A DNA stretch of 64,000 bases from Aminobacter niigataensis (GTDB lineage: Bacteria; Pseudomonadota; Alphaproteobacteria; Rhizobiales; Rhizobiaceae): assembly GCF_014200015.1 (NCBI RefSeq), contig NZ_JACHOT010000008.1, positions 62,001 through 126,000 of the forward strand, read 5' to 3'. Positions 3,968 through 58,433 of this stretch are shown here, in pieces; position 1 is the first letter of the stretch; every line of letters begins with the position of its first letter. Below the pieces are notes generated by a model that saw only the letters and a list, made by a program, of their open reading frames with translations, was not told where the DNA came from and did not search any database. The position numbers were made by a program, and so were the translations under genes.

Positions 3968-4194
3968 CAGTTTCCCGTCCGAATTAGCGGTCGAAGCCGC
4001 CCCCCATCAGGGGCTTCGTTAACCATCTTGTATATGAGTTCGGGACGGTAAACATCAAGTGAATGCGCTGCCGGATTGGTGACGCAAAGGCACGATCGGG
4101 GCGGCTTTTCCACATTTCGAATGCTGGACACCAGCGGCCGCAGGTGGCACCTTCGAACAATGAGTGAGTGCATTTCGCAGGTCCGTCAACAAAG

Positions 4195-5085
4195 ATGACG
4201 CCAGCCGAAGATTTCTCGGTGCTGCCGCCGTTCGAAGTCAGGACGAGCGCAGAGCAGCGCGTGCCGTTCGTATTCAACTCGCCGCATAGCGGGCGGTGCT
4301 ATCCCGAACGCTTCCTCGCCATGACCCGGCTCGATTCGACGTCCATCCGGCGCTCCGAGGATTGCTACGTTGACGAGTTGTTCGGTGCTGCCGTCGCACT
4401 CGGCGCACCCATGCTGACGGCACATTTTCCGCGCGCCTATCTCGATGTGAACCGCGAGCCGTGGGAGCTCGACCCCAGGATGTTCGCGGAACCTGTGCCG
4501 CCTTTCGCCAACGTCCGCTCGGCCCGTGTCGCCGGCGGGCTCGGTACCGTGCCGAAGCTGGTGGGCGAGGGGCTGGACATCTATCCGGGCCGGTTGCCGC
4601 TGTCGGAGGCGGTCGACCGCATCGAATGCGTCTACAAACCCTACCACGAGACGCTGAAGCGGCTGGTCACGCGCACCCATGCGCGGTTCGGCTATGCCGT
4701 GCTGGTCGATTGCCATTCGATGCCGGCCTCCGTCCGCATCGGCGACAGCGGCATGCGGCCGGACTTCATCGTCGGCGACCGTTTTGGCACCTCGGCCGCG
4801 TCGGAGCTTTCCGAACGGGCCATCGGGCTATTGGCGGCGATGGGTTATACCGTGGCGCACAATAAACCTTATGCCGGCGGTTTCATCACCGAGCACTATG
4901 GCCGGCCGGCGCGCAAGCTGCATGCGCTGCAGATCGAGATCAATCGCGGGCTCTACATGGATGAGCGCACGTTCCAGAAATCGGCGGGATTTTATGCGCT
5001 GGCCGACGATCTGGCGCGGTTTTCCGCCGATCTGATGGCGGTTCCGGATCATCATTTCCTCGACCTGCCGCTGGCTGCGGAGTAG
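4195..5085 (+). CDS. N-formylglutamate amidohydrolase family protein
   Basis: A 296-residue protein of the N-formylglutamate amidohydrolase (FGase) family. Recognisable blocks are VFNSPHSGRCYPE near the N terminus, the FPRAYLDVNREPWELDP block, VLVDCHSMP and the ITEHYGRP segment near the C terminus, which carry the metal-binding His, Asp and Glu residues. In the histidine-degradation branch this enzyme hydrolyses N-formyl-L-glutamate to glutamate and formate, but no other hut gene is nearby, so this may be an orphan paralogue. ATG 4195 is preferred; the frame is open from ATG 4168. Confidence 0.85.
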   Translation: MTPAEDFSVLPPFEVRTSAEQRVPFVFNSPHSGRCYPERFLAMTRLDSTSIRRSEDCYVDELFGAAVALGAPMLTAHFPRAYLDVNREPWELDPRMFAEPVPPFANVRSARVAGGLGTVPKLVGEGLDIYPGRLPLSEAVDRIECVYKPYHETLKRLVTRTHARFGYAVLVDCHSMPASVRIGDSGMRPDFIVGDRFGTSAASELSERAIGLLAAMGYTVAHNKPYAGGFITEHYGRPARKLHALQIEINRGLYMDERTFQKSAGFYALADDLARFSADLMAVPDHHFLDLPLAAE

Positions 5086-5105
5086 CAGCGCAGGCCGAGC
5101 AGGTT

Positions 5106-5184
5106 AAAAAAAGACCGCTCCGGAGAGCGGTCGAAGTCTAGGGAGGAAACGCCCAAGGAGGGCATGGACAGGAAACCCTGTCCG
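5106..5184 (-). ncRNA. mmgR: MmgR-like (alpha-r8 family) small RNA
   Basis: On the minus strand a sigma70-like promoter is followed by about 79 bases with three stem-loops. Stem 1 is GGACAGG/CCTGTCC (5183-5166), stem 2 is GCCC/GGGC (5163-5151), and stem 3 is an intrinsic terminator, GACCGCTC/GAGCGGTC (5132-5113), followed by T7 (5112-5106). Between stems 2 and 3 lies unpaired UUUCCUCCCU (5149-5140), the hallmark of the alpha-r8 family whose Sinorhizobium meliloti member is MmgR, a 77-nt RNA limiting polyhydroxybutyrate granule accumulation. The fold and motif are seen here; family and role are from knowledge. It lies antisense to no gene, between the FGase and hisN genes. Confidence 0.85.
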
Positions 5185-5190
5185 AAGTCG

Positions 5191-5219
5191 AGATTATTGT
5201 GCGCTGCACAAAAGTCAAG
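5191..5219 (-). promoter_or_regulatory. Promoter of the MmgR-like sRNA, with internal palindrome
   Basis: On the minus strand CTTGAC (5219-5214) is separated by 17 bases from TAATCT (5196-5191), a good alphaproteobacterial sigma70 promoter about 7 bases before the expected RNA start at 5184. The spacer holds the near-perfect palindrome TTGTGCAGCGCACAA (5211-5197). A repressor bound there would block the promoter; PhaR/AniA-type regulators of storage-polymer genes bind TGC/GCA-rich sites, but assigning one here is inference. Confidence 0.7.
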
Positions 5220-5309
5220 GCGCCTTGGGATTCTTTAAATCAAGTTGATGTGGTTATTGCCGGCGAGGGCCGCGGCGTGTCATCCACGCAACAGTCAGAG
5301 ATGGGGTGA

Positions 5310-6083
5310 ATGATGGTCGACGCCGAATTCATGCGACGGATCGCACGTGCTGCCGCAGCCGAAACGCTGCCTCGCTTCCGCCGGCAGGGTGCAGTCGCAA
5401 ACAAGCTCGCTGGCGGTTTCGATCCCGTTACCGAGGCCGACCAGGAGGCCGAACGCGCCATCCGCGCGCTGATCAACGCCGAATTCCCCGGCCACGGCAT
5501 CCTCGGCGAGGAGCATGGCAGCGAAAACATCTCCAACAGCCATGTCTGGGTGATCGATCCGATCGACGGCACGCGCGCCTTCATCTCCGGCCTGCCGGTC
5601 TGGGGCACGCTGGTGGGCTTGACCGTCGATGGCGACGCGGTGGCCGGGCTGATGTCGCAGCCCTTCACCGGCGAGTTGTTCTACGCCGACGGCAACGGCT
5701 CGCACTACGAAGGGCCGGGCGGTCCGCGCAAACTTTCGGTGCGCAAGACGACCAGCCTGTCGGACGCGACGATGTTCACCACCACGCCGGCGCTGTTCAA
5801 GGGCGAGATGCGCAAGCGCTATGACGAGCTTGAAAGCAAGGTGCAACTCGCCCGCTACGGCACCGACTGCTACGCCTTTGCCATGGTGGCGGCGGGGCAG
5901 GTCGACATCGTCGTCGATCCCGGCCTCAAGCCCTATGACATCGTGGCGCTGATCCCTGTCATCGAGCAGGCTGGCGGCATCGTCACCACCTTCGATGGCG
6001 GCCCGGCGGAGAATGGCGGCGACGTCATCGCGGCGGCGACGCCGGAACTGCACAAGGCGGCGATGGCCGTGCTGGCGGGATAG
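5310..6083 (+). CDS. hisN: Inositol-monophosphatase-family phosphatase, probable histidinol-phosphatase
   Basis: A 257-residue member of the inositol monophosphatase fold. The Mg2+/Li+ site residues are seen in FDPVTEADQEAE, GILGEEHG and WVIDPIDGTRAF, with the C-terminal metal Asp in VDPGLKPYDI. The stretch HVWVIDPIDGTRAFISGLP is characteristic of the HisN subgroup, which dephosphorylates L-histidinol phosphate in many Actinobacteria and Alphaproteobacteria lacking the HisB phosphatase domain. ATG at 5310 (or 5313) follows GGGG at 5303. The gene stands alone, with no his genes beside it, which is usual for hisN in rhizobia. Action on inositol phosphates cannot be excluded. Confidence 0.85.
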   Translation: MMVDAEFMRRIARAAAAETLPRFRRQGAVANKLAGGFDPVTEADQEAERAIRALINAEFPGHGILGEEHGSENISNSHVWVIDPIDGTRAFISGLPVWGTLVGLTVDGDAVAGLMSQPFTGELFYADGNGSHYEGPGGPRKLSVRKTTSLSDATMFTTTPALFKGEMRKRYDELESKVQLARYGTDCYAFAMVAAGQVDIVVDPGLKPYDIVALIPVIEQAGGIVTTFDGGPAENGGDVIAAATPELHKAAMAVLAG

Positions 6084-11050: not shown

Positions 11051-11287
11051 CTGCCCAAAGCGAACCGGATATGGCGTATGATAATGCCACGTCCGTCTGC
11101 CGCCGCGAGCTAGGGTCAGAGGTCGTGCCGGAGTGCATTTGGCCTTGTCTGCCCCGACTGGCGGTTCGGTGCCGGCCAACGGCACTGTGCCGCACGCATA
11201 TCGAAAGCATATCTGATCGTGAGCGGACCGGCACGTTGCCGTCCAAAATTGAACTGCCCGGATCGGGCCGTAGTGGAGAGAGAGACG

Positions 11288-16018
<4,731 letters not shown>

Positions 16019-16137: not shown

Positions 16138-17592
16138 ATGGGCAAGGTTACAGGTTTTCTCGAGATCGACCGGCAGGTGCACAAGTACCAGCCGGCTTCC
16201 GACCGCATTCGGCATTTCCGTGAATTCACGCTGCCGATGTCGGACAAGGAAGTCGAAAAGCAGGCCGCGCGCTGCATGGATTGCGGCATCCCGTTCTGTC
16301 ACGGCCCGACGGGCTGTCCAGTGCACAACCAAATCCCCGACTGGAACGATCTGGTCTACAATGGCGACTGGGACAATGCGATCCGCAACCTGCATTCGAC
16401 CAACAACTTCCCCGAATTCACCGGCCGCATCTGCCCCGCGCCTTGCGAGGAAGCCTGCACGCTGAACCTCGAGGACATTCCGGTCGCCATCAAGACGGTC
16501 GAGCAGGCGATTGCCGACAAGGCCTACGAGACCGGCTACATCAGGCCCTATCCGCCGGAAAAGAAGACCGGAAAGAAGGTGGCTGTCATCGGCTCGGGTC
16601 CCGCCGGCATGGCGGCGGCCCAGCAACTCGGCCGCGCCGGCCATGACGTCCACGTCTATGAGCGCGAGAGCCGTCCCGGCGGCCTGCTGCGCTTCGGCAT
16701 CCCGGACTTCAAGATGGAGAAGCACTATATCGACCGCCGCGTCGAGCAGATGGCGGGCGAGGGCGTCACCTTCCATTGCGGCGTCAATGTCGGCGTCGAC
16801 AAGAAGGTCGGCGAATTGCTCGCCGAATTCGACGCCGTGCTCTATTGCGGCGGCTCCGAGACGCCGCGTCCGGCGGGTATCCCCGGCGACGATCTCCTGG
16901 GCGTGCATGACGCGATGCCTTATCTCGTCCAGCAGAACAAGCGCGTCGGCGGCGAGGACATCCAGTCGGTTGCCTGGCCGTCCGAGCCGATCGTCGCTGG
17001 CGGCCAGCACGTCGTCGTCGTCGGTGGCGGCGACACCGCATCCGACTGCGTCGGCACGGCGTTCCGCCAGGGCGCGGTCCGCGTCACCCAGCTCGACATC
17101 CGGCCGCAGCCGCCGGAAAAGGAAAACAAACTCGCCGTGTGGCCCTATTGGGCGACCAAGATGCGCACCTCGTCGTCGCAGGCCGAAGGCGCGCAGCGCG
17201 AGTTCCAGGTGGCGACGCTGGAGTTCATCGGCGAGGAAGGCCAGCTGACCGGCGTCAAGTGCTGCGAAGTCGACGACAAGCGCAAGCCGATCCCCGGTAC
17301 CGAGTTCGTCATCCGCGCCGATCTCGCCTTCATCGCCATCGGCTTTGCCGGTCCGATTTCCGGCGGCCTGGTCAAGGAACTTGAAGGCAAGCTCGACATC
17401 GCCACCGACAGCCGCCGTTCGACCAACGTTTCGGCCAACGAGCAGGACTACAAGACCAATGTCGACAAGCTCTATGTCGCCGGCGACGTGCGCCGCGGCC
17501 AGTCGCTGGTCGTCTGGGCGATCCGCGAAGGTCGCCAGGCCGCGCAGTCGATCGACCTGGCGCTGATGGGCTCGAGCGTCCTGCCACGCTGA
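16138..17592 (+). CDS. gltD: Glutamate synthase (NADPH) small subunit
   Basis: A 484-residue GOGAT beta subunit that oxidises NADPH via FAD and feeds electrons through 4Fe-4S centres to GltB. The N-terminal cysteines are Cys46, 49, 54 and 60 in RCMDCGIPFCHGPTGC, with a second set in RICPAPCEEAC. The FAD Rossmann motif is VAVIGSGPAGMAAAQQL and the NADPH motif VVVVGGGDTASDC. The 119-base gap to gltB contains no gene but is GC-rich and may form hairpins. A terminator follows immediately. Confidence 0.97.
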   Translation: MGKVTGFLEIDRQVHKYQPASDRIRHFREFTLPMSDKEVEKQAARCMDCGIPFCHGPTGCPVHNQIPDWNDLVYNGDWDNAIRNLHSTNNFPEFTGRICPAPCEEACTLNLEDIPVAIKTVEQAIADKAYETGYIRPYPPEKKTGKKVAVIGSGPAGMAAAQQLGRAGHDVHVYERESRPGGLLRFGIPDFKMEKHYIDRRVEQMAGEGVTFHCGVNVGVDKKVGELLAEFDAVLYCGGSETPRPAGIPGDDLLGVHDAMPYLVQQNKRVGGEDIQSVAWPSEPIVAGGQHVVVVGGGDTASDCVGTAFRQGAVRVTQLDIRPQPPEKENKLAVWPYWATKMRTSSSQAEGAQREFQVATLEFIGEEGQLTGVKCCEVDDKRKPIPGTEFVIRADLAFIAIGFAGPISGGLVKELEGKLDIATDSRRSTNVSANEQDYKTNVDKLYVAGDVRRGQSLVVWAIREGRQAAQSIDLALMGSSVLPR

Positions 17593-21284: not shown

Positions 21285-21364
21285 CTTCGCTTCAGATGTC
21301 GCCCGCGCGCCAGGTTTGGACGCGCGGGGCGATGGCCATCGGCGTCAGTGCCGTGTAGACATCT

Positions 21365-21521
21365 CCTGCCAGGTGCCCGCAGCGATGCGGGAGAATCGGG
21401 AACACGGTGAAAATCCGTGGCGTGCCCAACGCTGTAAGAGGGACCGCATCGGCAAAAGCCACTGTTCGTTGAACGGGAAGGCGCCGAAGGCGGGTTGAAC
21501 TCGAGCCAGAAGACCGGCCCG
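21365..21521 (+). promoter_or_regulatory. Cobalamin (adenosylcobalamin) riboswitch
   Basis: The leader holds the usual cobalamin-riboswitch series: AGGTGCCCGCAG near 21371, GGGAAC and CGGTGAAAATCCGTGGC near 21399-21421, CCCAACGCTGTAAGAGGGA, the B12 box GCCACTG at 21458-21464, then GGGAAGGCGCCGAAGG and GAGCCAGAAGACCGGCC. It ends about 60 bases before bluB. High cobalamin should shut off bluB by hiding its ribosome site or by termination. Confidence 0.95.
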
Positions 21522-21582
21522 GCAGAAATCGTCCATCGCATGGTCAAGCGGCGGAAACCGATTGCTCGCCAGGGGACACGCG

Positions 21583-56751: not shown

Positions 56752-56989
56752 CGTTCGAAGCCTGTTTACGATATCGCCAGCATTGTTCGACGTTTGAATT
56801 TTTTCAACCCGCCATCCGATTTTAATTGATTGTGACGGCAGTGGTGCATATATCCCGGCTTGCCCAAAGTCGCACGTGCCTGTGGGTGTCCGCCGATCCC
56901 TCGAATGGCGAGGAAATCGGTAAGGTAACTGGAGCTAACCCCTCCAGTCGGTTTAGCGGCCAACCGCGAAATCGAGGACACCTTGAAGC

Positions 56990-57299
56990 AACGACGGTGC
57001 GGGCCTTTCTGGTTCTCTTCCGGCTGTCCAAAAGCCGGGGTTACTGAAGAGGCACACCTTCATTGCCGGCAGTGCGGAACGGGTCTTCCCATTTCCAAGC
57101 CAAGGCAGACAAAGCGAACCGAAGCCGGGCTGGCTCAGGTTCACCGCCGCGTGAAGCGCATTTATGGATCCAGGGTCTCCACAGGCTGGTTCCATCAAAT
57201 AGCGATCATGTCTTTGTCCACCGCGGGATACCACGGCCGGGAACGGCCGTCCCGCAGCTTGATGATCTTGCGCGGCAGGACCGCGCGATGGAGAGACCT
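56990..57299 (+). promoter_or_regulatory. Structured leader of ornithine decarboxylase (speF-type)
   Basis: Between the amidase and the decarboxylase is about 300 bases with at least five good stems: CCGGCT/AGCCGG (57020-57038), TTCAC/GTGAA (57140-57155), ATGGATCCAG/CTGGTTCCAT (57164-57195), a nested GCGGGA/TCCCGC with inner GGCCG/CGGCC (57223-57255), and GCGCGG/CCGCGC (57270-57286) ending 4 bases before the ribosome site. Alphaproteobacterial ornithine decarboxylase genes are known to carry the conserved speF RNA element here. The stems are seen; speF membership is inferred from position. Confidence 0.65.
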
Positions 57300-58433
57300 A
57301 TGGCCACTCAGCGCATCCTCGACTTCCTCGCCACCCGACGTCCCTCGGGCCCCTGCCTCGTCGTCGACCTCGACGTCGTGCGCGACAATTTCCGCGCCTT
57401 CGAAAAGGCCATGCCGGAGTCCAAGATCTACTACGCCGTGAAGGCAAACCCGGCGCCCGAGATTCTGCGCCTGCTTGCTTCGATGGGCTCGTCCTTCGAC
57501 ACCGCTTCGGTCGCCGAAGTCGAGATGGCCATGGATGCCGGCGCGCCGGCCGAGCGCATCTCCTTTGGCAACACCATCAAGAAGGAGCGTGACATCGCGC
57601 GTGCCTTCGCACTCGGCATCCGTCTGTTTGCCGTCGACAGCGTCGAAGAGGTGGAGAAGATCGCGCGTGCCGCCCCCGGCGCCCGCGTGTTCTGCCGCGT
57701 TCTGACCGATGGCGAAGGTGCGGAATGGCCGCTGTCGCGCAAGTTCGGCTGCGTGCCTGCCATGGCCGTCGACGTGCTGCGCCAGGCCAAGGCGCTCGGC
57801 CTCGATGCCTATGGCGTGTCGTTCCACGTCGGTTCCCAGCAGGTCGATCTCTCCGCCTGGGACCGCGCGCTGGCCGACGCCAAGATGGTGTTCGCCAAGC
57901 TTGCCGAAGAAGGCATCACGCTCGGCATGGTCAACATGGGCGGCGGCTTCCCGACGCGCTACCTGCGCGACGTGCCGGCTGCCCAGGCCTACGGCCAGGC
58001 CATCTTCGAGGCGCTGTCCAAGCACTTCGGCAACAACATCCCGGAGACGATCATCGAGCCGGGCCGCGGCATGGTCGGCAATGCCGGCGTCATCAAGTCG
58101 GAAGTCGTGCTGATCTCCAAGAAGGCCGACAACGACAATCTGCGCTGGGTGTTCCTTGACATCGGCAAGTTCGGCGGCCTCGCCGAGACGATGGACGAGG
58201 CGATCCGCTATCCGATCGTGACCGAACGCGATGCCGACGAAAAGTCGCCATGCGTGCTCGCCGGCCCGACCTGCGATTCGGCCGACGTGATGTACGAAAA
58301 GACGCCGTACCCGCTGCCCCTGTCGCTGACCATCGGCGACGAGGTGCTGATCGAGGGTACCGGCGCCTACACGACGACCTACTCGTCGGTCGCCTTCAAC
58401 GGCTTCGAGCCTCTCCGATCCTACGTGATCTGA
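57300..58433 (+). CDS. odc: Ornithine decarboxylase (alanine-racemase fold)
   Basis: A 377-residue fold-type III PLP decarboxylase making putrescine from ornithine, perhaps also cadaverine from lysine. The PLP Lys is in IYYAVKANPAPEIL. The His that stacks on PLP is in GVSFHVGSQ, GMVNMGGGFPTRY and IEPGRGMVGNAG bind the phosphate, and the second-subunit catalytic Cys motif is PTCDSADVMY. ATG 57300 has GGAGAG (57290-57295); ATG 57288 is in frame. It is regulated through the structured leader. Homospermidine synthase elsewhere in the window would use its product. Confidence 0.95.
   Translation: MATQRILDFLATRRPSGPCLVVDLDVVRDNFRAFEKAMPESKIYYAVKANPAPEILRLLASMGSSFDTASVAEVEMAMDAGAPAERISFGNTIKKERDIARAFALGIRLFAVDSVEEVEKIARAAPGARVFCRVLTDGEGAEWPLSRKFGCVPAMAVDVLRQAKALGLDAYGVSFHVGSQQVDLSAWDRALADAKMVFAKLAEEGITLGMVNMGGGFPTRYLRDVPAAQAYGQAIFEALSKHFGNNIPETIIEPGRGMVGNAGVIKSEVVLISKKADNDNLRWVFLDIGKFGGLAETMDEAIRYPIVTERDADEKSPCVLAGPTCDSADVMYEKTPYPLPLSLTIGDEVLIEGTGAYTTTYSSVAFNGFEPLRSYVI

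Follow-up and report, generated by a model that had tools for sequence, protein, structure and literature searches.

A gene for an MmgR-family (alpha-r8) small RNA with a putative PhaR operator in its promoter in Aminobacter niigataensis

Between a gene of the N-formylglutamate amidohydrolase family and a hisN-type gene of Aminobacter niigataensis, the minus strand carries what is, judged from its sequence, a copy of the MmgR (alpha-r8) small RNA gene. In the explanation that we regard as the best, with a probability of about 0.87, this gene encodes a trans-acting small RNA, and the spacer of its promoter holds an operator for PhaR (AniA), according to the model of Sinorhizobium meliloti. This explanation is built on the sequence, the predicted fold, the family membership, the sequence and conservation of the operator, its occurrence in common with a phasin gene and the presence of phaR, all computed here. 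The features of the locus are collected in Table 1; "the window" means the whole stretch of 64,000 nucleotides that was analysed.

Table 1. Coordinates of the features at the mmgR locus (window numbering)
Feature	Position	Strand	Basis
RF00519 covariance match, MmgR/suhB alpha-r8	5098..5170	-	67.4 bits, whole model 1-77
Inferred transcript, about 79 nt; start near 5184 inferred, end at the T-run	5106..5184	-	fold and terminator
Hairpin 1	5166..5183	-	MFE and centroid structure
Hairpin 2	5149..5165	-	MFE and centroid structure
Anti-Shine-Dalgarno 10-mer UUUCCUCCCU, predicted unpaired except first base	5140..5149	-	sequence and predicted fold
Intrinsic terminator, 8-bp stem and seven T	5106..5132	-	terminator scan
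Promoter: CTTGAC 5219-5214, 17-bp spacer, TAATCT 5196-5191	5191..5219	-	read in sequence
Candidate operator for PhaR (AniA) in the spacer of the promoter, TTGTGCAGCGCACAA	5197..5211	.	matrix score 23.4
Convergent gene of the N-formylglutamate amidohydrolase family, a usual but not obligatory neighbour of alpha-r8	4168..5085	+	PF05013, E 7.8e-75
hisN-type histidinol-phosphatase gene, divergent from the RNA	5310..6083	+	TIGR02067, 318.4 bits, cut-off 275.15

The RNA gene and its promoter

The first-pass annotation had read an alpha-r8 MmgR-like RNA with two hairpins, an unpaired motif and an intrinsic terminator, and both the family and the architecture were borne out. The covariance model RF00519 (gathering score 41) matched over its full length with an E-value of 9.7e-12, and this was the single match (E <= 0.001) in the Aminobacter assembly of 5.28 Mb in 26 contigs. 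The stretch 5184-5104 had a predicted folding energy of -39.0 kcal/mol, compared to -20.9 (sd 2.8) for shuffled sequences (z -6.5), and none of the 200 shuffles folded as well. The minimum free energy and centroid structures both consist of two hairpins, an open stretch with the 10-mer and the terminator. The 10-mer reads TTTCCTCCCT at 5149-5140, and the terminator stem (5132-5113) is followed by the T-run. The 10-mer, which is the core of the family, and the terminator are the traits named for alpha-r8 RNAs in PMC12559287; the locus has the unpaired UUUCCUCCCU after a hairpin and the Rho-independent terminator. The same paper reports one alpha-r8 copy in most species, adjoining an N-formylglutamate amidohydrolase gene. 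A table for Mesorhizobium huakuii assigns MH_s24, 71 nt long and listed with its sequence ends, to RF00519 (PMC5596092), and expression of an alpha-r8 RNA in this related genus is thus likely.

The proposed CTTGAC-17-TAATCT promoter can be read in the sequence and is kept in 77 of 78 copies among relatives, but a strict sigma-70 consensus scan listed no promoter within 4900-5500, because TAATCT agrees with TATAAT at three of six positions (by eye). The spacer between the -35 and -10 elements is filled by the palindrome TTGTGCAGCGCACAA, as the first-pass annotation had noted. We examined its conservation in 80 named loci kept out of 313, which come from Aminobacter and Mesorhizobium apart from a few other or unnamed records; among these 80, the HisN protein closest to that of the window was from A. 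aganoensis (96% identity). The RNA stood next to hisN in 78 of them. The arms TTGTGC...GCACAA were perfect in all 78 copies, and the three bases between them occurred in nine forms (AGC 34, ATC 16, GCC 9, GGC 6, ACC 4, GCT 3, GAC 3, AAT 2 and AAC 1). Such invariant arms around a drifting core are as predicted for a dyad that binds a protein. The string TTGACwTTTGTGCnnnGCACAATA was kept in 77 of the 78, which places the operator at the same position in the promoter. No RF00519 match was found at the hisN locus in Aquamicrobium defluvii and in a Mesorhizobium bin. Their best matches elsewhere scored 37.9 and 39.9 bits, below the gathering score, and both have phaR; phaR therefore does not need the RNA.

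The hisN-type gene is not thought to be part of the function of the RNA. Upstream of the operator, at 5232-5259, a block CA...TGAwTTA (minus strand) was seen in 72 of the 78 named loci; it may represent the promoter of the divergent hisN gene or a site for an activator. A second perfect palindrome, CAAGGCGCCTTG, overlaps the -35 element and was considered as another operator. It was rejected: it is broken in the Aminobacter copies L007, L012 and L030, and is kept in just one of the 78 named loci with the promoter.

Other RNA elements were observed far from this locus. At 56862-57168 (+), a match to the ar45 sRNA (161.3 bits) stops 9 bases short of a match to the speF leader (103.3 bits), and the latter overlaps the start of an ORF (57063-58433) that by eye resembles ornithine/lysine decarboxylases. 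smrC45 and SpeF stand under one entry in an S. meliloti table (PMC7143759), so ar45 may belong to the speF leader or be released from it. A cobalamin riboswitch match (117.4 bits) lies at 21354-21536 (+).

PhaR-type boxes in the Aminobacter genome

In S. meliloti, CAATTGTGCACCGCAGCATTA in the mmgR promoter is an efficient binding site of PhaR (AniA), with a listed position of 13 relative to the start; gel shifts were abolished when such palindromes were left out or mutated, as reported in PMC12542648, where the consensus is given as WNWD2NYGCRNYGCRNH2WNW. We built a matrix from fifteen S. meliloti sites classed as 'efficient', leaving out the mmgR site. The window site CTTTTGTGCAGCGCACAATAA scored 23.4 with this matrix, compared to 20.2 for the site at mmgR of S. 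meliloti. The palindrome at 5211-5197 was the one site in the window with a score of at least 10. One perfect copy of TTGTGCNNNGCACAA was found in the window; with two mismatches allowed there were 3 matches compared to 2.33 expected by chance, so the weight of the palindrome rests on its perfection, place and conservation. The spacer palindrome looks like a PhaR operator of the type gel-shifted at the S. meliloti mmgR promoter.

Aminobacter has phaR (PF07879 match at G000:C2:480314, E 7.7e-30). The exact 15-mer TTGTGCAGCGCACAA occurs at two places in the assembly, the mmgR promoter and a phasin promoter (C1:823050). At the latter it ends 60 bases before a Phasin_2 start codon and sits, by eye, between TTGACA and a -10 region, with a weaker second box downstream. 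The earlier guess of PhaR/AniA as the binding protein fits both the published motif and this recurrence. A genome search for TTGYGCANYGCACAA with one mismatch hit nine places, with 8 matches in forward and 7 in reverse orientation, versus 1 and 1 for the control. Two of the three Phasin_2 genes have two boxes each, with scores of 23.1 and 13.1 and, for the gene on contig C11, of 23.4 and 22.2; the matrix scan found no box in 250 bases at the third (C1:711744). From these boxes we predict that mmgR and two phasin genes of Aminobacter would answer to one repressor. The genome-wide count of the short core YGCRNYGCRNNA was uninformative (892 forward and 902 reverse vs. 805 and 802 in the control).

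Two further sites were observed. A strong PhaR-type box (score 21.5; L031:1501-1515, G000:C1:650831) lies about 60 bases before an ORF of about 120 amino acids, which matched nothing in Pfam or NCBIfam (E 0.001) and is a candidate for a gene of no known family linked to polyhydroxybutyrate (PHB). A PhaR-type palindrome with one mismatch (L034:1501-1515, G000:C1:298319) lies between the genes for an NMT1-like substrate-binding protein and an MFS transporter; the best NCBIfam match of the transporter, under the cut-off, is the NarK nitrate/nitrite family.

PhaR-type boxes at alpha-r8 promoters across the class

RF00519 was over threshold in 43 of 61 relatives and, in a draw from the class, in 94 of 193 genomes; phaR (PF07879) was found in 50 and 121 of them, respectively. 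The RNA and phaR tended to occur together: both were present in 88 class-draw genomes, the RNA alone in 6, phaR alone in 33 and neither in 66. These counts are uncorrected for kinship and assume the same 193 genomes in both draws (the listed handles agree, but some genomes that gave no match are missing from each list). Many of the listed class-draw genomes without the RNA or phaR were small (1-2.5 Mb). Where PF07879 was missing from a draft genome, the cause may be a gap in the assembly (G192, for example, has 440 contigs).

Boxes were scored from -95 to +15 around the model start in 179 of 180 over-threshold copies; the copy in G059 had too little upstream sequence and was left out. A score of at least 10 was reached in 117 of 171 copies from genomes with phaR and in 1 of 8 from genomes without it; counted by genome, 98 of 127 and 1 of 8 had a box. 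In flanking control windows such scores occurred in 3.0% of 3614 windows, which overlap one another, come mostly from longer loci and are largely coding. A first control with random windows (99% point 22.4) had drawn from loci that hold alpha-r8 promoters and was not used.

We then kept the 159 copies having the 10-mer with at most one mismatch and dropped 20. An identity scan covered ten of the dropped copies. Four (L208, L219, L252 and L259) stay RF00519 on scanning and were removed for the 10-mer alone. Six, in the stretches L135, L141, L148 and L152 (G018:C24, G026:C4, G012:C1 and G023:C17), exceed the RF00519 gathering score but fit ar15 (RF02345) better, and in three of these four stretches the ar15-like matches stand in tandem. 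Counts by RF00519 alone therefore overstate the copy number of alpha-r8. The ar15 family, of the AbcR type, belongs with RF00519 to Rfam clan CL00108; it differs in that the copies examined are without UUUCCUCCCU and give weaker RF00519 matches.

After filtering, 115 of 151 copies from genomes with phaR had a box, corresponding to 97 of 123 such genomes, compared to 1 of 8 genomes without phaR (Fisher p 0.00025, uncorrected for kinship). In the two draws the numbers were 37 of 40 and 60 of 83 with phaR, and 0 of 2 and 1 of 6 without. By family, at least one box was present in 55 of 65 with phaR; the eight genomes without phaR represent eight families, one having a box. Four families hold genomes of both kinds. 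Boxes were on the phaR side and absent from the other in three of them, and neither side had a box in the fourth.

Among core spacings of 0 to 8, YGCR-N-YGCR was found in 116 of the 151 copies versus 17.6 expected from promoters resampled with a first-order Markov model, and in 2 of 8 copies from genomes without phaR; the next spacing gave 23 versus 17.2 expected. A form with one extra middle base, defined post hoc from the failures, was present in 13 of 30 copies without a normal box, as compared to a mean of 2.3 and a maximum of 9 in 1000 resampled sets. Seventeen of the 151 copies had no box of any form. At least two boxes (score 6 or more) were found in 31 of 124 copies outside the family of the window, and 27 of all 33 box pairs were spaced 17-22 bases. 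We consider it fairly probable that the PHB-sensing PhaR regulon has a conserved RNA arm, formed by the alpha-r8 RNAs, across the Alphaproteobacteria. Where a family has both phaR and alpha-r8, the promoter of the RNA would in most cases keep one or two boxes (pairs mostly 17-22 bp apart), some lineages would use the one-base-longer form, and the box would be mostly gone where phaR is absent.

The same survey bears on a rival reading, in which the RNA is a true MmgR but a regulator other than PhaR binds the palindrome, or nothing binds it and the palindrome is a feature of the promoter. One genome lacking phaR (G109) has a box of score 12.0, the loose pattern YGCRNYGCR gives a box in 2 of 8 such genomes, and among the 65 families having both phaR and alpha-r8, the matrix detects no box in 10. 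We nevertheless judge this unlikely: the palindrome fits a PhaR matrix built without mmgR, an identical 15-mer lies at a phasin promoter, boxes go with the presence of phaR across genomes, and PhaR binds the S. meliloti mmgR site (PMC12542648). Operation through PhaR remains the preferred reading also when compared to a role mainly in nitrogen control by NtrC, with the PHB link secondary. According to the review PMC7143759, both NtrC and a limited supply of nitrate induce mmgR in S. meliloti, but the conserved promoter element found here is a PhaR-type box, and we regard a mainly nitrogen-directed role as very improbable. The first-pass annotation had pointed to gltBD 6 kb away. gltB (11219-16018, NF008730) does start 6 kb off, followed by gltD (16138-17592, named by eye), but distance to a trans-acting RNA is meaningless by itself and this nearness carries no evidence. 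A chance set of hairpins, or merely a terminator or leader of a neighbouring gene, is practically untenable: a terminator-like site is expected 0.5 times by chance in such a stretch, but the RF00519 score, the fold z-score, the presence of the RNA in 78 of 80 named relatives and the M. huakuii entry with its sequence ends (PMC5596092) all speak against it.

Proposed function and comparison with known systems

What the first-pass annotation proposed was for the most part known already for the family in S. meliloti (PMC7143759, PMC12542648). There is more MmgR in S. meliloti without phaR (PMC12542648), and PHB over-accumulates without the 10-mer (PMC12542648, PMC12559287). For Aminobacter we infer the start site, the repression of mmgR through the operator, the role of Hfq and the targets. 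The family is characterised by a transcript of about 77 nt that is bound by Hfq. In the absence of PHB, PhaR would sit between -35 and -10 and block mmgR, as at the phasin promoters. When PHB granules form they would take up PhaR, and phasins and MmgR would be made together. MmgR, probably with Hfq, would pair its open UUUCCUCCCU with ribosome-binding sites, and this pairing may lower the expression of phasin and other mRNAs and so act as a brake on granule build-up. As to the effect of MmgR on phasins, the review PMC7143759 writes that it 'preserves synthesis', and PMC12542648 considers 'repression' likely. According to the discussion in PMC12559287, no direct base-pairing partner of MmgR had been identified. 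By analogy with Caulobacter SisA, many mRNA targets may exist.

Targets were predicted for three phasin genes and for 39 of the 50 ORFs taken greedily from the window, the starts of which were guessed. The predicted pairing energies of the 10-mer region with the phasin start regions were -5.0, -13.6 and -15.1 kcal/mol, and the 39 window genes gave a background of -9.0 (sd 3.3) with a 5% point of -14.2. One of the three phasins therefore stands out, since just the value of -15.1 passes the 5% point and -5.0 is below average strength.

MmgR (SmelC689) of S. meliloti resembles the Aminobacter RNA in its RF00519 family, 10-mer and single copy. The place of the PhaR site is also alike, from -33 to -13 in S. 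meliloti (from coordinates in PMC12542648 and PMC7143759) and from about -30 to -10 in Aminobacter if the start is 5184. The Aminobacter palindrome is perfect (TTGTGC-AGC-GCACAA), whereas one arm of the S. meliloti site is degenerate (TTGTGC-ACC-GCAGCA). The operators of S. meliloti phaP1 and phaP2 have the same motif in or around the promoter (PMC12542648); they differ from that of Aminobacter mmgR, where the controlled gene makes RNA. SisA-SisD of Caulobacter crescentus share the family and the 10-mer, and SisA also adjoins an N-formylglutamate amidohydrolase gene (PMC12559287). Caulobacter differs in having four copies, on which a sponge RNA, CrfA, acts, and PMC12559287 reports no conserved motif upstream of the four Sis copies.

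The analysis fixes the annotation of the locus. Aminobacter mmgR is an additional case of a known RNA family with a known type of operator, and is mostly known already. A literature search found no paper on how widely PhaR boxes occur at alpha-r8 promoters; Ceizel Borella 2016/2018 and Lagares 2016/2017 were outside it, and priority is uncertain. The survey suggests that alpha-r8 RNAs are commonly controlled by PhaR in the Alphaproteobacteria, the published demonstration that we found being for S. meliloti only. It also gives a reason to re-examine Caulobacter, with its four copies reported to lack a shared upstream motif. Wide control by PhaR would have a bearing on the question why the RNA has been retained, and on the part that it plays in carbon storage. 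If it holds, a repressor that senses granules, and not only nitrogen status, would be the default input of the alpha-r8 family.
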